This document shows positions 5,009 to 47,743 of a stretch of 64,000 bases of DNA, piece by piece. The translations under genes were made by a program, and so were the position numbers. The DNA is from an uncultured Leptolyngbyaceae cyanobacterium (lineage in GTDB: Bacteria > Cyanobacteriota > Cyanobacteriia > Leptolyngbyales > Leptolyngbyaceae), in the NCBI GenBank assembly GCA_938023035.1, contig CALIDI010000014.1:1-64000 (forward strand), given 5' to 3'. The notes under the pieces were generated by a model. The model did no database searches and had not been told where the DNA came from. It was given only the letters and a program-made list of their open reading frames with translations. Each line of letters begins with the position of its first letter. The first letter of the stretch is position 1.

Positions 5009-6760
5009 ATGAGCGATTATCCAGATTTTGCCCCACAGCATTATCAAATTAAGCGAGAGTTGGGGGTAAACCGGGCAGGAGGCCGTGTCACCTACCTGGC
5101 AACAGATACCCGGACTCAGCAACCGGTCGTTATTAAGCAATTTCAGTTTGCTCGTCTCGGAGTCAGTTGGGCTGATTATGATGCCTACGAACGTGAGATT
5201 CAACTCTTAAAAGAGCTAAACCACCCAGGGATTCCTCGTTATCTCCATTCCTTTCAAACAGAAACGGGCTTTTGCATGGTGCAGGAGTATAAGCCAGCCA
5301 CTTCACTGGCAGATTCCCGCAGTTTTAACCCTGAACAAATTCGGCAAATTGCGATCGCGGCCCTCGAGGTTTTGGTTTACCTGCAAAATCGGATTCCACC
5401 GATCATTCACCGAGATATTAAACCTGAGAATATTTTAGTGGATGAAGCTGGCAATCTTTTTCTCGTTGATTTTGGCTTCGCTCGCGTTGGGGATGGAGAA
5501 GTCGGGGTCAGCAGTGTGGTCAAAGGCACCCTGGGGTTCATGCCACCTGAGCAGTTGTTTAATCGCCAGCTCACAGAAGCCTCTGACCTTTATGGTTTAG
5601 GGATGACGCTGATTTGCCTATTAACAAGAACACCATCCGATCGGATTGGAGATCTTGTCGATATTAGCTACCGCGTCAGCTTTAGACACCTTATTCCTAA
5701 CTTCAACATCCAGTGGGTCAACTGGTTAGAAAAAATGGTAGAGCCGCGTTTGAAAGATCGATATCCAAACGCGATCGCAGCTCTAGAGGCAGTTCCTACT
5801 TCTCCTTTGCGTCCACCAGAAGCTCAATTTAGCCAATCAACGCTTATCTTTGTTGCTAGGCGAGCCGGTGAGCAACTGACCCAAACTCTGAGCATCACTA
5901 ACCCAATTCCAGAAACTACCCTAGAAGGAACATGGCAGCTAGAACCCCATCCCCATGATCCTGAAGCAGAGCGCTACCAATGGATTGTGGTTACTCCTCA
6001 GACCTTTAGCGGAAACCAAACAGAGTTTCAAATCATAGTAGATACGCGTCGATTGATGGCTGGCAAAACCTATCACCGACAGTTAGTACTCCAGGCAAAC
6101 ACACTGGCAAAATCCTACCCGCTGCATCTCCAAGTCCAGACAGCTCCCATTTTAGTCAAGTCTCAGCTACTGCCCTATGGGCTGCTAACGTTAGCCTGCT
6201 TGTTTTTTGTCGGCATCAGTTGGTTAGGTGGCTGGATGGTGCTAGTGGTGAGGGCGATCACAGAATCCTCAGATGGATCGGGGTTTAGTGCCATGTTGGG
6301 GGCAGCAATTGGGTTGGAAGGTGCTGCATGGTTGATGCGTTCCTCTGAATGGCGCATTGGTGCAGTGGCCAGTACTCTGGCTGCAATTTTTACAGGAGCC
6401 TTGGCAACCCTTCGCATTTTAACAGAGGTAATCTCCAGCACAGGCTCTAGTGTGATTGCAGAAGCATTGGTTGGCACTGTAGAAGGCGCGATCGCAGGGA
6501 TAGTTTTGGGAACAGTCGTGGAAAAGATGATTGTTGTAGGCACCCAGAAAGGACTGGCGATCGTGATATCACTGTTAACCACCCTTCTGGGTATTAGCCT
6601 TGGCCTTAGCTTAATTCTTGGTACAACCAGCCAGCTTAACTTTATGCTACTGACATTTAGTAGTCTTAGCCTCGTTACGCTGATTATCCAGCGTTCCCTG
6701 AGCCGATCGCATGTGATCCATACCCACCGCAAGGCCGAACGGTATCTGATCAAACCCTAG
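5009..6760 (+). CDS. Serine/threonine protein kinase with beta domain and C-terminal membrane region
   Basis: The N-terminal kinase domain spans about residues 10-270. It has the ATP-binding lysine in VVIKQF, the catalytic loop HRDIKPENILV, DFGFAR and the MPPEQL activation segment, so it should be active. The glycine loop (GVNRAGGRV) is loose. Next comes an immunoglobulin-like beta segment (about 280-385) resembling the stretch that follows other cyanobacterial Hanks kinases. Several hydrophobic helices (about 390-560) and a basic tail end the protein. This suggests a membrane-anchored kinase, although the order kinase, beta domain, membrane is reversed from PknB. I prefer ATG 5009 (MSDYPDFAPQHY) over the upstream TTG at 4964 because homology begins there. 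The target is unknown. Confidence 0.88.
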   Translation: MSDYPDFAPQHYQIKRELGVNRAGGRVTYLATDTRTQQPVVIKQFQFARLGVSWADYDAYEREIQLLKELNHPGIPRYLHSFQTETGFCMVQEYKPATSLADSRSFNPEQIRQIAIAALEVLVYLQNRIPPIIHRDIKPENILVDEAGNLFLVDFGFARVGDGEVGVSSVVKGTLGFMPPEQLFNRQLTEASDLYGLGMTLICLLTRTPSDRIGDLVDISYRVSFRHLIPNFNIQWVNWLEKMVEPRLKDRYPNAIAALEAVPTSPLRPPEAQFSQSTLIFVARRAGEQLTQTLSITNPIPETTLEGTWQLEPHPHDPEAERYQWIVVTPQTFSGNQTEFQIIVDTRRLMAGKTYHRQLVLQANTLAKSYPLHLQVQTAPILVKSQLLPYGLLTLACLFFVGISWLGGWMVLVVRAITESSDGSGFSAMLGAAIGLEGAAWLMRSSEWRIGAVASTLAAIFTGALATLRILTEVISSTGSSVIAEALVGTVEGAIAGIVLGTVVEKMIVVGTQKGLAIVISLLTTLLGISLGLSLILGTTSQLNFMLLTFSSLSLVTLIIQRSLSRSHVIHTHRKAERYLIKP

Positions 6761-7757
6761 AGCACAGATTCCTTAGCAAGGACTCACCTTTGCTGACCAC
6801 AACATTGGGCTAACTTTAGCGAATCTTAAAATTTCCTGTCTATATACTAAAAAGTGATGAACCTCTGTTTAAGGTGATTTAGGTAATGTCGTGACTACTG
6901 TAGAAAGCTTGTAACAAGTTCAACCATTCACCTGCACTGCGAGCAGCGTGTCGTTATCGTACTATCAATTTTGGGACTTACGCACATGAAACCGCAAAAA
7001 CGATTTGAGTTAATCGAGGTTCCTTTGTCTCCATTCGCTTCTCTAGCCCATTGTGATTGCTCTGAGAATGTAAGGCGAATTATTTCTCATGACGAGCATG
7101 GAGAGCACGTTTCTAACCCCTTTCCTTCATCTACGGTTAGGTGAGTTTTTCAACCAAAGGCTGAGGCTAGAATAATAGGTACCGTATTTTGACTTATGTA
7201 GGCAGAACGAGTTAACTTGAGAGCCTCCGGTTAAATTGGGCTGTGTGTTTTGATCGATTCATTGATAAATTCAATTGTTTACCGCTCAATTGTTTATAGA
7301 GGCGTGTAGCTAGCTATCTACATAGGGTTAAGTCGTAGACGTTTTCTTGCATTACCTTCAACCAGGAGCAGTCCTATTTCTTAAAGAATAGAGACCATAT
7401 AAGCATTTCCAGCAGTTTTTCAAAAACAGTTCGCCAGAGCAAGGTTATTTTTCTCCATTCTTTACATAGGAGCACTACCTACCCACGAATTCCTCAGACA
7501 ACTCAATTATCTGAGAGTGTCTATGTACTGTATTTCGTGCGGCTAACTCTAGTATTCCGTAGTATTCCGTCTAGAAAAGTATTCCGTGTAGAAAGTTTGA
7601 TGAATCGCAGATCTTCAGGGCTTGAATACATCGACTTTCTGGCACTCCAACTACTTGTTAGATTTTACTTGGCAAACCACTAGAGCTAGAGAAGCATGGA
7701 TATATTGTTTATTAAAAATGTACATAAGCTACTAAGTCAACTTCTTAGGAGAAGGTT
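6761..7757. other. One-kilobase AT-rich spacer without a gene
   Basis: No frame in this stretch looks like protein. Near its right end AGTATTCCGT occurs three times within 37 bases (7551, 7561 and 7578). The composition is more AT-rich than the flanking genes. It leads into the frameshifted acyltransferase and may belong to the same decayed segment. Confidence 0.5.
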
Positions 7758-19879: not shown

Positions 19880-20553
19880 GGATCACCGGGAAGTCGCTGT
19901 GTGTTCTGTCTTTAGCCTCATGCACGCAATGGACTAGAAACCTGAGTACCCTACCCCAAGAGACAGGGAGAACACCGAGAGATGGCGCTGTGCCTCTGTG
20001 ACCAGGTTTTAGGTGATAGAATCCTGATTTCTTAGAATCAACAAAATTCAGGTTGAATCAACGGTTTGTTATCGGTATGGCTGGCCCAATTGGCTGGAGA
20101 TTGTCTAAATCTGATAACAGTTAAGATAATTTCCTTAACGGAACCAATCAGTATTTTTTAAAGACTCTGGGATTGTGAGGTTAGGATAGCTAAACGATTG
20201 GTACAACTGTCGGATCTAATCTAACAAGCTCTACAATAGGTCAAAATCTGAAGGCGGAGCCGGTTGCAGTTCACTCATGGTTGCTTCAATAATTAGCCGT
20301 TCCATGATTTTTGGGTTTCTGAGCTTCAGCCAGATGTTGTATTTTGAACAATGTTCCTCATGAGTGTTTTGTTTGACTCACGCATTGTCGCGGCTCAACC
20401 TGGATTAAGGTTAGACAAGTCGTTGGGTTGATTGAGCAATACCTGGTTTTGAGTTGAACTTGGTTTATGTTGGAAAGTGAGTATGCGCAGGGCATCGGCA
20501 TCTATTCGTTAATCCCAATGTGCTTTTGTGTGCGCCAGTGAGGCAAATACTTG
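19880..20553. other. Spacer without recognisable gene
   Basis: About 0.67 kb upstream of the histidine kinase gene. No protein-like frame or RNA fold stands out. The promoter of the kinase should lie in its right part. Confidence 0.4.
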
Positions 20554-22782
20554 ATGGCTGTTTTATCAGTGGATGATACCTATTTGGGGGCGTTTACGGC
20601 GGATGCTGAGGGAAAGCTGCTGACGGTTAGTCACTGTTTAAGCCAGATGCTGGGGTACAGTGCCCAGACAATGCAAGGGCAGGAGTGGCTCAGTTTTGTG
20701 GCGATCGCTGATCATAGTCAGGTCAAAATCGGGTGGGAGGCCTCTCTACAGGCCCAACAGCCCTTTTGCGCTCAATTTCGGCTAAGGCAGGCAAATGGGG
20801 AGTGCCTCTGGGTAGCAGGGCAACTGGTACCAACTTGGACAGAGGATGGTTCGCTACAAACCATTCAGGGCATTTGTTTGCCCCTCCTGTCACCCCCCAG
20901 CCCTCTACCCCAGGTAGAGTGGGAGCAAAAGGTCACTGCGGTTGCCTATTCGATCGGGTGCTCGCTCAACCTGCGGCAGGTGCTCCATAGTGCCGTGACC
21001 GGAGTGCAGCAGCTATTTCAGGTCGAACGAGCGCTGATCTTTCGGTTAGAGCCAACCTGGCGGGGAACGGTGATGACCGAAGCCGTTAGCTCTGCCTGGT
21101 TGTCGATTTTGGATCGGGTGATTGCGGACTCTTGTTTTGCCAGGTTGCACTCCTCCCTCTACCAGGATGGAAAACCGCGGGTAACCAACGATATTCGCGC
21201 AGCCTCTCACCTGTCGCCATGCTATGTCGATTTATTGACCAGCTTTGAAGTGCGGGCCATCTTATCGGCCCCCATTATCCAAGAGAGGCAACTCTGGGGG
21301 CTATTGATTTTGCACCAATGTAGTGGCCCGCGCCAGTGGCAACCCTGGGAGATTGCAGCAGCGCAGCAACTGGCGACCCGCCTAGGGGTAGCGATTTATC
21401 AGTGTGAGCAATTGCAGCAATTGCAGCGGGCAAACGCAGATCTAGAGCGCCAGGTACAAAAAAGCAATGCCCAGCTTAAGCTGGCGATTGAGTTTGAGGC
21501 GACCTTGAAGCGCATTGCTGATCGCGTCCGCGATAGCCTCGACGAGAATCAGATTTTGCAAACAGCCGTACGCGAATTAGCGATCGCCGCTGGGGTGAGT
21601 AACTGCAATGCCTCTCTCTACGACTTAGAGACGCGCACATCGACAGTCTGCTATGAGTACACTACCTTTTTAGAACCAGTGCAGGGGCGGATTGTGATGA
21701 TGGACAACTTCCCCGAGGGCTATAGACAACTGCTCCAGGGGCAGTATTTCCAGTTTTGCTCCCTTTTGCCCAACCCCAAGCGCGGTCGGGTTGCGATGCT
21801 GGCGTGCCCAATTGTGGATGACCAAGGAGCCTTGGGGGATTTGTGGCTGATCAGTCAGGAATATCGCGCCTTTAATGAGCAAGATATTCGTTTGGTGCAG
21901 CAGGTGGCCAACCAATGTGCGATCGCCATTCGTCAGGCCCGACTTTATCAAGCGGCCCAGGCTCAGGTCAAAGAACTAGAAAAGTTGAACCGCCTTAAGG
22001 ACGATTTTCTCAGCACGGTCTCCCACGAGCTGCGCACCCCCATCTCAAATATCAAAATGGCCACGCAAATGTTGGAACTAGCTCTGAGTCGGTTAGAACT
22101 GCTTGAAGCCAATGAGGCCAACCCGATCAGCCGCTACTTTCGCATTCTCAACGATGAATGCCAGCGCGAGTCACGGCTGATCAATGACTTGCTCGATTTA
22201 TCACGGCTAGAAGTGGTTGAAGATGTCTTAACGTTAACGGATATTGACTTATCGGTGTGGTTACCCCATCTGGTCGCGCCCTTTGTCGAGCGGGCACGGG
22301 GTCACCAGCAGGCGTTAGAACTCGATTTGATGCCAAATTTGCCGTTACTCACCACCGACTTGTCTCGGCTAGAGCGCATTCTGAATGAATTGCTAAATAA
22401 CGCCTGCAAATACACGCCCGCCAATGAAACCATTCGAGTAATGGCAAAAAGTGATGGCCATCAGATGTGTCTTAGCATCACCAATTCAGGCGTCGAAATC
22501 GCTCCGCAAGAATTAGCCCACGTTTTCGATAAGTTCTATCGCATTCCCAATAATGACCCCTGGAAGCATGGAGGCACGGGACTTGGGTTGGCTCTAGTGA
22601 AACAATTGGTAGAAACCCTGAGGGGGAGCATTCATGCAGTGAGTAGCTGTAATCAGACAAGCTTTGTCTTGCAGTTGCCCCTGGCGATCGCCGTCCTGCC
22701 TGGCATCACACAAACTGCCCCAGAGGCTGGGATAAAGTCAAAACCACTTCCATCGGAGGCACCTTGCGATGCCACACCATAG
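20554..22782 (+). CDS. Soluble PAS/GAF sensor histidine kinase
   Basis: A 742-residue protein. A PAS domain (about 1-115) contains LGYSAQTMQGQEWLSFV. A GAF domain (about 130-290) and a short coiled coil follow, and then a second GAF-like domain (about 315-470). Next comes the HisKA dimerisation helix with the phosphoacceptor in STVSHELRTPISNIKMA, and an ATPase domain with NELLNNACKYTP and the G2 box GTGLGLALVKQLVE. There are no membrane helices, so the signal is probably cytoplasmic (light, redox or small molecule). Neither GAF shows an obvious bilin-binding Cys-His pair, but I cannot exclude one. No response regulator is adjacent. ATG 20554 follows GAGGCAAATAC; a TTG directly precedes it. 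Confidence 0.9.
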   Translation: MAVLSVDDTYLGAFTADAEGKLLTVSHCLSQMLGYSAQTMQGQEWLSFVAIADHSQVKIGWEASLQAQQPFCAQFRLRQANGECLWVAGQLVPTWTEDGSLQTIQGICLPLLSPPSPLPQVEWEQKVTAVAYSIGCSLNLRQVLHSAVTGVQQLFQVERALIFRLEPTWRGTVMTEAVSSAWLSILDRVIADSCFARLHSSLYQDGKPRVTNDIRAASHLSPCYVDLLTSFEVRAILSAPIIQERQLWGLLILHQCSGPRQWQPWEIAAAQQLATRLGVAIYQCEQLQQLQRANADLERQVQKSNAQLKLAIEFEATLKRIADRVRDSLDENQILQTAVRELAIAAGVSNCNASLYDLETRTSTVCYEYTTFLEPVQGRIVMMDNFPEGYRQLLQGQYFQFCSLLPNPKRGRVAMLACPIVDDQGALGDLWLISQEYRAFNEQDIRLVQQVANQCAIAIRQARLYQAAQAQVKELEKLNRLKDDFLSTVSHELRTPISNIKMATQMLELALSRLELLEANEANPISRYFRILNDECQRESRLINDLLDLSRLEVVEDVLTLTDIDLSVWLPHLVAPFVERARGHQQALELDLMPNLPLLTTDLSRLERILNELLNNACKYTPANETIRVMAKSDGHQMCLSITNSGVEIAPQELAHVFDKFYRIPNNDPWKHGGTGLGLALVKQLVETLRGSIHAVSSCNQTSFVLQLPLAIAVLPGITQTAPEAGIKSKPLPSEAPCDATP

Positions 22783-23037: not shown

Positions 23038-23649
23038 GTGAGCGTAACGCAGTTGAATCCAGTATCTGCTAAACCAACCCCCTATCTGCTTGAGAGCCTC
23101 GCAGATTTTCCCGTCGGTGAAACAGGGTGCCCACGCCGGGCACGGATGCAGATTGATCTGATGCTGTTAGCGATCGAAGCGTTAGACTTAAGCGGCTCAG
23201 AAGCCATTCTTGCCATGGCACGAGAGTTAGAACTACAGAGTATCATCCCCAATCGAGTTGCCCTCTGGCGCATGCGTAGCTCTAACCCCCTCCGCCGCTA
23301 TAGCCAACGTCGTGCTCTGACCCTGCCTGAGGCAAAGGCACTGGTCATTATTGGGGCAAACTTGGCACGGCGTCTCACGGTCTTAATTCGGCAATTGCTG
23401 CTGGCCTATCAACAATTAACAGAAAAACAACTCTCCCTCGACCATCACTTTCGCTTGTCTGATTACCTGGAGCGGTTCCGCGTCCATTTCCGCGCCCGCA
23501 TGAATCCCCGCCGTTCGGCAGTGGCTGCCTACACCGATGAGAAACTAAACCAGCTTGCGATAGAACAGTTGACCCAGCTTTTGTTTTGTACAGGCACCTA
23601 CGGAATGCAGCGTTTTTGGAATAGTCTGTTTGACGGAGAAGTGGCATGA
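23038..23649 (+). CDS. DUF3038 domain protein
   Basis: About 203 residues. The sequence holds RRARMQIDLMLLAIEALDLS, a segment with WRMRSSNPLRRYSQRRALTL, and a C-terminal YGMQRFWNSLFDGEVA. This is the DUF3038 family, restricted to cyanobacteria and of unknown role. The GTG at 23038 is the likely start because AAAGGA lies 7 bases upstream; an earlier GTG at 23005 would add 11 odd residues. It overlaps the DUF4335 gene by four bases (ATGA), so the two are translationally coupled and probably act together. Confidence 0.85.
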   Translation: MSVTQLNPVSAKPTPYLLESLADFPVGETGCPRRARMQIDLMLLAIEALDLSGSEAILAMARELELQSIIPNRVALWRMRSSNPLRRYSQRRALTLPEAKALVIIGANLARRLTVLIRQLLLAYQQLTEKQLSLDHHFRLSDYLERFRVHFRARMNPRRSAVAAYTDEKLNQLAIEQLTQLLFCTGTYGMQRFWNSLFDGEVA

Positions 23650-25073
23650 CAATTCAACGCCAATATAGCTTGCCCAGTTGTACGCTCACCTTAGAGGGCT
23701 TGGGAGAAACGAAAGTCTCAAATCCGGCAGAAACTCGCCCACTAATGCTGGTGCTGCTGAATGCCTATTGCAAAATTGTGGGGCAAGAGCCACCGCTAAC
23801 CGGAGGGCGTGAGTTCTTAGAAAGCCTGATTACAGAAGTGAGTCAATATACTCAGCGGTTACTGAGTGGGGTCAATCCTCACCATGCCCCCAATCAGTCA
23901 AGCCTGGTGCAGTTGCAGCCTGTAGATAGTGCCCACCACCGGCTAAAAGTGCGGAATGGGGAGGGGACAGAGGAGCGATCGCTGGATTTGACAACGGTGC
24001 AACTCTTTGACCTGGTAGAAGCCCTGGATCAGATGCTGGCGGATCGGCAAACCTTGCCCAACCTATCCCTCAGCTTGCAACCCCTTTCACGGCGCTACGT
24101 CCGCACCAGCGAGCCTTTCGTTAAGCAAGCGCTCCCGGCAGCAGTTGGCTTTTCTGGCTTAGCCGCGGCCTCCTTGCTGCTAGCGTTATTGCCAGCCCCC
24201 AAAGTGCCACAGCCCCGCTGTCTGTTGCCAACTCCTGAGTGTCGTGCTGAAGGAGCAAAAGAAGAAGAAAAGCGACCGCCGACAGTGGCTTCTTCTCCTT
24301 CCCCTGCTTCTGGGGCTAGCCCTACCCCCAGTCCTGAGGCAACCAAGCCCTCCCCTGTGCCGCTGAATTCCCCTTCCCCTGAAACGGCCCCACCACCTGC
24401 CAATCCAACGGCTTCTCCCATCAGCAACCCCACCCAGGTTGAAACGTTGCGGCAACAACTACAACAAGAACTGGCAAAGTCCTGGAAGGGCCAGAATATA
24501 TCAGAGGATTTGATTTATCGGGTCAGTGTGTCAGAGCAGGGGGTTGTTCGGGGTTATAAGGACGTGAATGATAAGGCGCTGACCAATCTTCAGTTAACTC
24601 CTCTCCCCAATTTGCTGAAAGTTCCGCAGCCAGGGGAAGCCGCAAACCCAGAAGCACTGGCTGATTTTAAGGTTGTTTTTACGCCAACGGGTCTGGTGGA
24701 AGTTGCTCCCTGGCAACAGGCAATGGTAACACCCCCTAACGAAAACCCAGAAATTACGAATAGTGATCAGTTAGAAAAGTTGCTACCCAAGTTGCGATCG
24801 CAATTGCGCGATAACTGGCCAAACAAAGACCCCAAATTTGTGAAGCCTCTGGAGTTTCAGGTGCGTGTTACCGCCGATGGCACCATCGACGCTTACCGCC
24901 CTTACAATCAACCCGCCTTTGATTACGAAGTTGAAACCCCCTTACCCAAAATCGCCCAAAAGTCCACAGGAGAAATTCCGCCAACGCAACAGCCCCATGC
25001 CCTCTTTCGGGTGGTGTTTACTGAAAAAGGAACGATTGAGTTAACCCCCTGGCGTGGGTGGCGTAACGAATAA
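23646..25073 (+). CDS. DUF4335 domain membrane protein
   Basis: A 475-residue protein. The N-terminal DUF4335 domain (about 1-155) starts MTIQRQYSLPSCTLTLEGLG. A single hydrophobic segment (about 165-183, GFSGLAAASLLLALLP) precedes a long Pro/Ser/Ala-rich linker (about 205-260). Two similar C-terminal modules follow; each predicts a strand-rich unit ending in a phrase like VVFTPTGLVEVAPW or VVFTEKGTIELTPW. The layout suggests a cytoplasmic N-terminal domain joined through one membrane helix to two exported repeats. The function is unknown. It is always-coupled-looking with DUF3038 through the ATGA overlap. Confidence 0.85.
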   Translation: MTIQRQYSLPSCTLTLEGLGETKVSNPAETRPLMLVLLNAYCKIVGQEPPLTGGREFLESLITEVSQYTQRLLSGVNPHHAPNQSSLVQLQPVDSAHHRLKVRNGEGTEERSLDLTTVQLFDLVEALDQMLADRQTLPNLSLSLQPLSRRYVRTSEPFVKQALPAAVGFSGLAAASLLLALLPAPKVPQPRCLLPTPECRAEGAKEEEKRPPTVASSPSPASGASPTPSPEATKPSPVPLNSPSPETAPPPANPTASPISNPTQVETLRQQLQQELAKSWKGQNISEDLIYRVSVSEQGVVRGYKDVNDKALTNLQLTPLPNLLKVPQPGEAANPEALADFKVVFTPTGLVEVAPWQQAMVTPPNENPEITNSDQLEKLLPKLRSQLRDNWPNKDPKFVKPLEFQVRVTADGTIDAYRPYNQPAFDYEVETPLPKIAQKSTGEIPPTQQPHALFRVVFTEKGTIELTPWRGWRNE

Positions 25074-25196: not shown

Positions 25197-25892
25197 TCAC
25201 CCCGCCAGGGGAACCTGCTGCGGCCCAGCCCAAATGCTGTTGAGGTACTCTCCGTAGGTAATTGGCACATCCTCATCCGCCTGCTGGCTGTCACCTGTCA
25301 GGTCAACAGCCCAAAGGTGCCAATCGTCTTCCCCCATAGTGCCAGCTCGAAACAGAACGCGACCAGGGTGCTTTTGGCTCCAACCTAGCAAAATGGCATG
25401 GCTATAGTGAACTGGGGTCGGTGCCAGAGTGCTAACAGCATTGTGTTGACAATCGAGCACAACAGCATAATCTGAGGCTAGGTCGGAACAAAAGATAGAC
25501 TCAAATTCTCGTGCTAACAGGCGATCGCCCGTTGGTGACCAGGCAATTGGAATCACGATAGAAATCGTGCCGTTGCGATCAGAAACCGTATCAGCAAAGG
25601 GATTATTGGCAAAAGGCGAAGAAGCTGTAATCGCTTGCAAATCTCCAGTGTGTAAGTTTTCAACAAACAGCACACTACTGACCTGGCTGCGAAAAATCTC
25701 TGACTTTCGATACAACTGGATGCGACTGTAAGCCGCGTAGCAGTGGTCAGGGGAAATCAGAGATTGACTTCGATAGTAAAAGGTTTGTTCACCTACCCCG
25801 ATATTTTCTGTAGAGAAGGTGGCCATCACCCAATTCCAGGGAACTGGATGGGGACTGTTTAACGGATCGACCTGGACGAACGGATCTATCAT
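25197..25892 (-). CDS. Hypothetical protein, TolB-like strand composition
   Basis: A 231-residue soluble protein. It contains beta-propeller-like phrases such as IAWSPTGDRLLAREFES and HLWAVDLTGDSQQADEDVP, rather like TolB/WD strands. I know similar proteins only as conserved cyanobacterial hypotheticals. The ATG 25892 (MIDPFVQVDPLNSPHPVPWN) looks natural. It is convergent with the DUF4335 gene across a 120-base spacer. Confidence 0.65.
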   Translation of the reverse strand: MIDPFVQVDPLNSPHPVPWNWVMATFSTENIGVGEQTFYYRSQSLISPDHCYAAYSRIQLYRKSEIFRSQVSSVLFVENLHTGDLQAITASSPFANNPFADTVSDRNGTISIVIPIAWSPTGDRLLAREFESIFCSDLASDYAVVLDCQHNAVSTLAPTPVHYSHAILLGWSQKHPGRVLFRAGTMGEDDWHLWAVDLTGDSQQADEDVPITYGEYLNSIWAGPQQVPLAG

Positions 25893-45208: not shown

Positions 45209-47743
45209 CTACACTCGCAAGTAGGCGATCGTCACACCCGAACCACCTTCTTCCCGTGGGGCTAGCTCAAATCGCTCGACCAGGGGGTGCGTTTGCAAAA
45301 AGGTGTGAACACCCTGACGCAGCTTGCCGGTACCCTGTCCATGAATGATCCAAACAGCGGAGCCAGGGGCGCTGTTAAGGGCCTTCTCAATCACAGGTTC
45401 AGCATCGGCTACCCGACTGCCGCGAATATCGATGGTATTTTGTGAGGTGCGGACAGGGAGGATAGGAGTTGCCCCAGGAGGATCCAAATTGGAGGAGGGG
45501 CTAGCGCTGCCAGATTTTGGCGGTGGCGCTGATGAAGCGGTGGGTTGACGGCGAGGGGGGGAAGAGGCCACCTCGATGACTGCTTTTTCTCCTGCAAGAG
45601 ATTCCACTTCGGCCAGGGAAATTGTCATTTTCATCAGGCCAAAGCGCACTACGATTTCGTGATTGTCATTCGCCGTCGTTAATACTTCGGCCACTTGACC
45701 CAGGCGAGGAATCCGGACGCGATCGCCCACTTGGGGCCGAAAGCCCTTGGGCACCGCTGGTTTTGTAGCCTGAGCCGGAAGATGTTGCGCCGCGAGCTGA
45801 TGCAACTGCTCTGTGGCTTGCTGGGCAGCTTGGGCGGTCGGGGTACCTTTTTGCAACTGGCGAATCACCTGAGCAATTTCCTGACGGGCCTCCGCGATCG
45901 CAGCCTGCACAGCCTGTTCCTGGGCTAGTTGTAGTTCGCGTTCTCGCTGTTTCAGCGCTTCAGCCCTATGGGTCAGTTCCTGGTGCAACCGCTCGGCCTG
46001 GGCTAACAGGTTCCCCGCTTCTTGGGATTTTTTCTCCTGGCGACGGCGTTGTGCTTCTAACCCAGCAATCACCTCGTTCACTTCCTGAGAAGCCCCGCCT
46101 ACAAGCATCTGAGCCTGCTCCACAATCGCTGGAGTTAAGCCTAAACGACGGGCGATCGAGAGCGCATTGGAGCGGCCTGGAATCCCCCATAACAACCGAT
46201 AGGTGGGGGAAAGACTAGCCTCATCAAACTCGACAGAGGCATTTTCAAACCGTTTATCCTGGTATTTCAGCGCTTTTAGCTCACCGTAGTGAGTGGTGGC
46301 CATGGTCAGAGCATTTTGGTTCGCCAAGTGCTGTAGCAGAGAGATCGCCAGAGCACTGCCCTCCGAGGGGTCTGTGCCTGCGCCGACTTCATCCAGCAAT
46401 ACTAGGGAAGGCGCTGGAGGGGCCGTTGCTTCTATGGGCGACGATCCTAGGGCAGCCAAAATTCTAACAATCCGGCGAATATGGCCAGAAAAGGTGGAGA
46501 GGCTTTGCTCTATCGATTGCTCATCACCAATATCGGCCAGGATTTGCTCAAACCAGGGCAACTCCACCGGCTCGCGGGCGGGTATAAACAGGCCAACTTT
46601 AGCCATCAGTGCAGCTAGGCCCAGGGTTTTGAGGGTGACAGTTTTGCCACCCGTATTCGGGCCGGTAATCGCTACTACGCGAATTTCTGGTTGAATCACC
46701 AGGTCAATCGGTACTACAGGCCGACCCTGTTCGTGTTGCTGCTGCCACACCAGCAAAGGATGGCGGAGTTGCCGCAGGGTAATGGGGGCTGGGCAAGCTG
46801 GAAGGAAGTCCGATTCTGGCTGCGCTTCTGAGGAGGTGCCGCCGGGAAGGGGGCTAGCTGGCTCCAGCAAATGGGGAGGATTCGCCTCTAGCCAGAGACT
46901 ATAGCGGGCACGGGCAGTGGCCAAATCCAGGGTCGTGGCGATCGCCAGCAGGTATTCCAACTCTTCCTTAACAGCGGCGACCTTTTCGGTCAGGGTACGG
47001 CGCACGGCCTCGGCTTCTGCCGCTTCCTGTCGTTGTAGTTGGCGTAACTGGTTGTTAGCTTCCACCGTGGCGTGAGGCTCGACATAAAGCGTGGCACCGG
47101 TCATGGAGGTATCATGCACAATCCCCGGAATGTGATCGCGGTGGCTAGCTTTCACCGGCACTACAAACCGCTCAGAGCGCTGAGTGATGAGGTGTTCCTG
47201 AATCGCGTTTGCCTTGCGTTGCAGAATATGTTGCAACAAGCTGTAGACGCGATCGCGCCCCTGTCGTAGCTTTTGCCGCACTTCAGCGAGTTTAGGGCTG
47301 GCCCGGTCGGCAACATCGCCATTGTCATCAATGCAATGGTGGATCTCCTGCTCCAGCTCAGGGTAGGTACGCAGATCCGCCACCAAGCGATTTAGAATGA
47401 GCAGATCCGGATGGGCATCAATCACCCGTCGCAGGTTACGGGTGCCCGCGAGGGTCGTGGCGATGGCTAGCAGTTCTTCCCCAGACAGGGTACCATGCCG
47501 CTCTGCTCGCTCCAGGGCTTCGCCAATATCCTCCACCCCTTCAAACTGCAAACCCGTAGCCAAGCGCGTTTCCAGGGTATATACTTCACGGGTTTGGGCC
47601 AGCAGTTCTTGGGTTTCCAACCGAGTTGAGGGAATCGGCAGTTGCCGCGCTGCGATCGCACCTAACTTCGTCGCAGCAAAGGTTGCCAGATGTTGGCATA
47701 AACGCGGCCATTCCAAAAGTTCAAGGGTTTCAGCCTGAATCAA
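45209..47743 (-). CDS. mutS2: Endonuclease MutS2
   Basis: An 844-residue MutS-family ATPase. The MutS core has Walker A GPNTGGKTVTLKTLGLAALM and Walker B LVLLDEVGAGTDPSEGSAL, with the His of the ABC-type switch in TMATTHYGELKALKY. A long coiled coil follows (about 520-640), and a Pro-rich linker leads to a C-terminal Smr nuclease domain with IDIRGSRVADAEPVIEKAL and WIIHGQGTGKLRQGV. MutS2 acts on recombination intermediates and, in Bacillus, on collided ribosomes. The start is a TTG at 47743 giving MIQAETLELLEWPRL, the normal N terminus. Confidence 0.96.
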   Translation of the reverse strand: MIQAETLELLEWPRLCQHLATFAATKLGAIAARQLPIPSTRLETQELLAQTREVYTLETRLATGLQFEGVEDIGEALERAERHGTLSGEELLAIATTLAGTRNLRRVIDAHPDLLILNRLVADLRTYPELEQEIHHCIDDNGDVADRASPKLAEVRQKLRQGRDRVYSLLQHILQRKANAIQEHLITQRSERFVVPVKASHRDHIPGIVHDTSMTGATLYVEPHATVEANNQLRQLQRQEAAEAEAVRRTLTEKVAAVKEELEYLLAIATTLDLATARARYSLWLEANPPHLLEPASPLPGGTSSEAQPESDFLPACPAPITLRQLRHPLLVWQQQHEQGRPVVPIDLVIQPEIRVVAITGPNTGGKTVTLKTLGLAALMAKVGLFIPAREPVELPWFEQILADIGDEQSIEQSLSTFSGHIRRIVRILAALGSSPIEATAPPAPSLVLLDEVGAGTDPSEGSALAISLLQHLANQNALTMATTHYGELKALKYQDKRFENASVEFDEASLSPTYRLLWGIPGRSNALSIARRLGLTPAIVEQAQMLVGGASQEVNEVIAGLEAQRRRQEKKSQEAGNLLAQAERLHQELTHRAEALKQRERELQLAQEQAVQAAIAEARQEIAQVIRQLQKGTPTAQAAQQATEQLHQLAAQHLPAQATKPAVPKGFRPQVGDRVRIPRLGQVAEVLTTANDNHEIVVRFGLMKMTISLAEVESLAGEKAVIEVASSPPRRQPTASSAPPPKSGSASPSSNLDPPGATPILPVRTSQNTIDIRGSRVADAEPVIEKALNSAPGSAVWIIHGQGTGKLRQGVHTFLQTHPLVERFELAPREEGGSGVTIAYLRV

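Follow-up and report, generated by a model that had tools for sequence, protein, structure and literature searches.

A paired DUF3038-DUF4335 module of thylakoid-bearing cyanobacteria with a possible place at the thylakoid membrane

Background

The origin and building of thylakoids remain open questions, and few known genes follow the presence of these membranes. Gloeobacterales are described in one study as the earliest-diverging lineage, one that has no thylakoids, and that study also reports that Slr1106 and Slr0305 are absent from this group (PMC13174344). The proteins examined there were picked beforehand among known factors. Passages of a second study list VIPP1, the Kai system, Psb27, PsbY, PsbZ, PsaI, PsaJ, PsaK and PetN as further components that Gloeobacterales lack (PMC8386580).

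A plant protein provides a published link between thylakoids and the genes described here. According to passages of one study, Arabidopsis ANU10 (At1g28530) resides in the thylakoid membrane, and the anu10 mutant has fewer thylakoids, with 3.08 versus 8.37 layers per granum (PMC4036511). The authors report a low-significance match of ANU10 to the DUF4335 family, and in these passages they regard the protein as specific to land plants, with no obvious cyanobacterial orthologue. A 2025 review states that the molecular function of ANU10 is still unknown (PMC12427647). A literature search found no other paper that names DUF4335 and none that names DUF3038. Nor did that search return any account of the obligate pairing of the two families, of the duplication of the pair or of its lack in Gloeobacterales.

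Results and discussion

A translationally coupled gene pair

The window analysed here is a stretch of 64,000 nucleotides from the genome of an uncultured Leptolyngbyaceae cyanobacterium (assembly GCA_938023035.1, contig CALIDI010000014.1). It carries adjacent genes for a DUF3038 and a DUF4335 protein (Table 1). The first protein matches Pfam family PF11237 over residues 32-199 of 203 (E 2.7e-66, 223.2 bits, cut-off 25), and the second matches PF14233 over residues 5-185 of 475 (E 3.6e-60, 203.5 bits, cut-off 27). Both profiles are covered in full (positions 1-168 of 168 and 1-186 of 186, respectively), which makes the two proteins clear members of families that Pfam lists as having unknown function. 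NCBIfam has no model for either family.

The same genome (4.75 Mb) contains a second DUF3038 gene and a second DUF4335 gene, adjacent to one another on contig C10, that were missed in the initial annotation of the window. The window pair is termed 'A-type' and the contig C10 pair 'B-type' below. Profile scores assign 152 of 170 distinct adjacent pairs to the A-type and 18 to the B-type, a procedure that forces the deep lineages L214-L217 into one of the two groups.

Sequence features consistent with coupled translation can be read directly from the DNA. An AAAGGA motif lies just upstream of the GTG start codon of the DUF3038 gene at 23038. The DUF4335 start codon (ATG at 23646) has a GGAG motif 7 nt upstream, within the DUF3038 gene, and overlaps the TGA stop codon at 23647-23649. 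This ATGA overlap and the limits of the pair had been placed correctly in the initial annotation. The overlap is more than chance, because an exact overlap of four bases recurs in 72 of 80 homologous loci in a scan of named genomes and in 103 of the 152 distinct A-type pairs. It occurs in none of the 18 B-type pairs, where gaps of up to 300 bases separate the two genes.

Table 1. Features of the DUF3038-DUF4335 locus in window coordinates
Feature	Position	Strand	Description or basis
DUF3038 gene	23038..23649	+	203 aa, GTG start, predicted all-helical, basic, A-type
ATGA shared by stop and start codon	23646..23649	+	Read from sequence; recurs in homologous loci
DUF4335 gene	23646..25073	+	475 aa, ATG start; PF14233 match; AlphaFold2 mean pLDDT 79.9
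DUF4335 N-terminal domain, residues 1-140	23646..24065	+	Tandem beta-beta-beta-alpha, predicted cytoplasmic; AlphaFold2 secondary structure, structural neighbours
Single predicted membrane segment, residues 163-181	24132..24188	+	Hydropathy; AlphaFold2 confidence low here
Proline-rich linker, residues 186-260	24201..24425	+	21 Pro of 75; mostly pLDDT under 50
TolA/TonB-like repeat 1, residues 262-355	24429..24710	+	AlphaFold2; 2x9a_B (TolA C-terminal domain) Z 5.9, 75 aligned, rmsd 3.1
TolA/TonB-like repeat 2, residues 372-468	24759..25049	+	AlphaFold2; 1tol (TolA fusion) Z 5.4, 78 aligned, rmsd 3.3

Two parallel lineages of the pair

Quick trees were built for 99 pairs, and in each protein tree a branch separates the same 17 B-type pairs from the others, with SH-aLRT support of 79 for DUF3038 and 99 for DUF4335. 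The four deep-lineage pairs group with the B side in either tree (support 99 and 74), followed by two pairs from family f26 (84 and 77). No swapped combination of A- and B-type partners is found among the 99 pairs. Distances in the two trees correlate at 0.95 across all 99 pairs and at 0.58 across the 17 B-type pairs, which can be explained by shared species history alone.

Coupling of the two genes is common and not universal, since in genomes of family f13 the A-type genes are present at separate places. This arrangement is found in five of six f13 genomes (G056, G109, G119, G145 and G151; not in G187).

One further locus (L241, genome G193) has a DUF3038 gene at 6297-6851 with no DUF4335 gene nearby by a custom profile. 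Pfam finds two DUF4335 genes in that genome.

Distribution among cyanobacteria

Of 292 surveyed genomes from the phylum, 132 have DUF4335 and 138 have DUF3038; all listed matches of either family come from the window's own class. Within this class, 388 genomes were surveyed. DUF3038 is present in 376 of them, and Pfam recognises DUF4335 in 364. The 24 DUF4335 misses comprise 12 genomes that also lack DUF3038, 11 with a DUF4335-like open reading frame (ORF) downstream of DUF3038, and one, G416, in which the DUF3038 gene is cut at the end of a contig.

The 11 genomes with an unrecognised partner all belong to genus g33 and measure 1.6-1.7 Mb. In these eleven, DUF3038 is followed immediately by a gene for a membrane protein of about 195 aa. 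At all sixteen g33 loci inspected, which include the eleven, the next ORF downstream encodes 190-206 aa and ends in a hydrophobic region. A custom DUF4335 profile matches 12 of the 16 ORFs at E <= 0.01, including 7 of the eleven, and the other four are near-identical sequences by eye. The apparent occurrence of DUF3038 alone in 12 genomes is therefore rejected. Neither gene clearly occurs without its partner, because the eleven g33 genomes carry a diverged downstream copy and G416 is truncated.

The initial annotation had proposed a dedicated two-part envelope system with no known role, and had suggested examining co-conservation across cyanobacteria, with independent occurrence of the two genes in many genomes counting against the idea. 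The two families track together across the 388 genomes, and no such independent occurrence is observed. Together with the same A/B split in both families, this co-occurrence supports a dedicated two-part membrane system. The pair is an obligate two-protein module of thylakoid-bearing cyanobacteria, present twice, and is retained even in genomes of 1.6-1.7 Mb. It was not found in viral contigs.

Twelve of the 388 genomes lack both families. Nine of these (G299, G309, G316, G325, G333, G343, G352, G360 and G368) are all of the Gloeobacterales genomes in the set. DUF4335 is detected in 0 of the 9, and a search with a deep DUF3038 alignment, run without its own positive control, also yields 0 of 9 at E <= 10. 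Two others are incomplete genomes (G331, 68%; G351, 62%). The last, G051, has photosystem I genes and belongs to the same genus as G233, which carries the pair. An 814-aa neighbour of the G233 B-type pair matches in G051 over residues 1-83 and then runs into N, and a search with DNA of the G233 A-type region found nothing. G051 is uninformative as a case of true loss, since its B-type place is hidden by N.

The PsaB proteins hint at the identity of two Gloeobacterales genomes. The G299 protein matches 7f4v_aB, presumably from Gloeobacter violaceus, without a difference over 872 residues, and the G352 protein is identical over 749 residues to 9e0j_H, which we take to be from Anthocerotibacter panamensis. 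In G299, G309 and G333 (loci L187, L188 and L189) PsaB is 872 aa long and carries a C-terminal extension, which is absent from the 719-aa ORF of G316.

A possible connection to thylakoids

Near-universal presence in the class, combined with the absence of both genes from all nine Gloeobacterales genomes, is the phyletic pattern expected of a thylakoid biogenesis factor, and the absence is the new point of this analysis. Both this pattern and what is reported on ANU10 favour a place at thylakoids over one in the cell envelope. The reading that we favour, with a probability of roughly 0.4, is that the pair forms a two-part module working on the cytoplasmic side of the thylakoid membrane in those cyanobacteria that have thylakoids.

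A gene may be missing from Gloeobacterales without having a role in thylakoids, as the Kai genes show: they are not thylakoid parts, yet PMC8386580 lists them with the same pattern. The absence represents one evolutionary split and not many independent ones, and the many ways in which the two groups differ cannot be told apart from a single event. The pair might thus serve a general core function of the other cyanobacteria, such as regulation, division, the clock or the cell envelope, and be missing from Gloeobacterales through their early divergence. The similarity between DUF4335 and a thylakoid protein, reported as weak in passages of PMC4036511, speaks against this explanation, which we regard as unlikely while ranking it first among the alternatives.

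Predicted architecture of the two proteins

An AlphaFold2 model of DUF3038 (41 sequences) consists of helices only, with a mean pLDDT of 81.8 and a pTM of 0.80. The protein is likely soluble, because its best 19-residue hydropathy mean is only 1.49; a helical cytoplasmic partner had been anticipated in the initial annotation. The model finds no close relative among known folds (best Foldseek E 0.39, best VIA-align Z 3.7), and the sequence has no match in the PDB beyond chance. This does not prove that the fold is new.

DUF4335 is predicted to cross the membrane once. Hydropathy peaks over the 19 residues listed in Table 1 (mean 1.93), with windows starting at 164-166 giving equal values, and the median start of the segment is 175 in A-type proteins. 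The description of a one-pass membrane protein with a proline-rich linker thus holds. The distribution of charges predicts a cytoplasmic N-terminus for 138 of 152 distinct A-type proteins (6 are opposite and 8 tie) and for just 12 of 18 B-type proteins. In the AlphaFold2 model (41 sequences), pLDDT is mostly above 90 in both C-terminal repeats and low in the membrane segment and the linker.

Aligned over 100 columns, the two repeats are identical at 31 positions, and none of 1,000 shuffles scores as high. The structural comparisons with TolA domain III in Table 1, set against a Z of 4.2 for TonB 1xx3, suggest that the repeats are somewhat nearer to TolA-III than to TonB. The Pfam TonB_2 profile matches 15 of 41 aligned DUF4335 homologues at E <= 0.01 (best E 1.9e-6). 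The earlier label 'TonB-C-like' appears right as to the fold, while the window protein itself scores 15.9 bits, under the TonB_2 cut-off of 22.

Repeat number varies among homologues. A-type proteins (n=152) have two repeats in 95 cases, one in 22 and none detected in 35; B-type proteins (n=18) have one in 16 and none in 2. These counts are slightly too low, since some short ORFs (283-285 aa; L118 and L158) seem to be cut at contig ends. As repeats are undetected in 35 of 152 A-type proteins, the outer part is optional, and the common core is DUF3038 together with the membrane-anchored N-terminal domain of DUF4335.

This variation bears on the proposal that DUF4335 sits in the plasma membrane as an envelope-spanning transducer or tether, with its repeats acting in the periplasm and DUF3038 as its cytoplasmic partner. 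The resemblance to TolA-III and TonB, the TonB_2 matches, a predicted disordered linker of 75 residues and the presence of at least one detected repeat in most proteins of both types (117 of 152 A-type, 16 of 18 B-type) are all in its favour. However, Z values of 4 to 6 indicate a common arrangement on the scale of the structural-comparison tool, and the membrane segment comes after 140 residues of cytoplasmic domain, whereas TonB and TolA begin with theirs. In addition, 31 of the 35 A-type proteins without a detected repeat are 238 aa or shorter (a few of these ORFs are perhaps cut at contig ends), which means that about a fifth of all A-type proteins stop shortly beyond the membrane segment. 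Reaching across the periplasm, as initially suggested, is therefore not supported as a general role of the family. The envelope-spanning explanation accounts for the C-terminal part of the long forms and not for the core, and we consider it improbable.

The closest structures to the N-terminal domain are 2it9_A (Z 9.6) and 2nvn (Z 9.2), uncharacterised cyanobacterial proteins that presumably belong to Pfam DUF1818, followed by PURA (8chv, Z 8.5); Whirly reaches a Z of only about 4. In Foldseek the top matches are Whirly 4koo_C (E 2.2e-3) and PURA 8chu_B (E 1.4e-2), with none at E <= 0.001. A DUF4335 profile searched against PDB sequences gives no match to 2it9, 2nvn, PUR or Whirly proteins at E <= 10. 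The domain is acidic, with a median pI of 5.2 in the A-type and 5.3 in the B-type. A membrane-tethered nucleic-acid binder, whose PUR/Whirly-like domain would hold mRNA or DNA at the membrane beside a basic A-type DUF3038, draws on the Foldseek ranking and the PURA score, but it appears very improbable given the acidity of the domain, the modest E values, the low Whirly score and the uncharacterised nature of the two best structural neighbours.

Evidence on contact between the partners

Charge offers one indication that the two proteins may meet. The DUF3038 protein in the window has a pI of 9.84, and A-type DUF3038 proteins are generally basic (median pI 9.4), complementing the acidic N-terminal domain of DUF4335. 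This pairing of charges holds for the A-type and not for the B-type, in which DUF3038 is itself slightly acidic, at a median pI of 5.9.

Coevolution was examined in 209 concatenated A-type rows, corresponding to roughly 111 effective sequences at 80% identity. Inter-protein couplings are stronger than in any of 12 within-clade shuffles, but they account for 126 of the top 300 couplings, close to the share that random choice would give. The signal was rejected as evidence of contact, since close relatives share descent in both genes; the tree-distance correlation of 0.95 has the same flaw.

Gene neighbourhood

The gene neighbourhood gives no functional hint for the pair. A gene of the phosphoribosyltransferase family is found divergently upstream in 12 of 41 clustered loci, all of the A-type, and five loci have a MutS2-like gene ahead of a B-type pair. 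ExbB/ExbD and TolQ/TolR were not recognised beside the pair among eight neighbouring proteins scanned with Pfam, the other neighbours being clustered only.

Three other genes in the window deserve mention. Directly upstream of the pair and on the same strand is a histidine kinase gene with PAS and GAF domains (20551-22782), which is not a conserved neighbour among the clustered loci. Convergent to the DUF4335 gene is a 231-aa ORF (25197-25892, reverse strand) with homologues near the pair in loci L066, L077 and L085, of which the L077 homologue has no Pfam match. About 20 kb from the A-type pair, the start of a reverse-strand ORF (45209-47743) closely resembles, by eye, the MutS2-like protein that precedes B-type pairs.

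A model for the module

On the favoured reading, DUF4335 would be a membrane anchor that presents its tandem beta-beta-beta-alpha domain to the cytoplasm, and DUF3038 a soluble helical partner made beside it through coupled translation. We infer a thylakoid location, binding between the two proteins and a scaffold role: DUF3038 would dock on the DUF4335 N-terminal domain, and cytoplasmic components or a second membrane might be held there. The module would in this way help thylakoids to form or to be organised. The TolA-like repeats, in the lumen or the periplasm, may be an accessory that is missing in many lineages. On this reading the few genes known to follow the presence of thylakoids would be joined by a compact module, with two genes in each pair and most genomes carrying two pairs, which is open to deletion and tagging in laboratory strains.

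A bolder evolutionary scenario can be drawn from the same elements. The pair could have been invented in the common ancestor of thylakoid-bearing cyanobacteria as one of the parts that enabled a separate thylakoid membrane, with an anchored receptor (DUF4335) and a helical partner (DUF3038) organising its cytoplasmic face. An early duplication would have yielded two pairs, and the receptor half would have passed to plants as ANU10. Taken as a whole this scenario is unlikely.

Comparison with known systems

The DUF4335 repeats follow the same order of elements as the C-terminal domain of TolA and TonB, namely a helix, two strands, helices and two strands. Unlike in those proteins, the domain occurs in two tandem copies here, in one copy in B-type proteins and in none in the short A-type forms. 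The position of the anchor also differs. TonB and TolA have their membrane segment at the very N-terminus, whereas that of DUF4335 lies at residues 163-181, after a folded domain.

The N-terminal domain is similar in predicted fold to 2it9, 2nvn and PURA and may share the PUR/Whirly fold. It differs from all of these in its low sequence identity (6-9%), its membrane anchoring and its acidic character.

VIPP1, Psb27, PsbY, PsbZ, PsaI, PsaJ, PsaK, PetN, Kai, Slr1106 and Slr0305 have the same phyletic pattern as the pair. None of these Gloeobacterales-absent factors is related to it by Pfam.

ANU10 resembles DUF4335 in having one predicted membrane segment, in addition to the low-significance match published by its authors, and differs in that a DUF3038 partner does not appear in the passages of PMC4036511. 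The pair would also give a cyanobacterial setting for studying the role of ANU10 in Arabidopsis.
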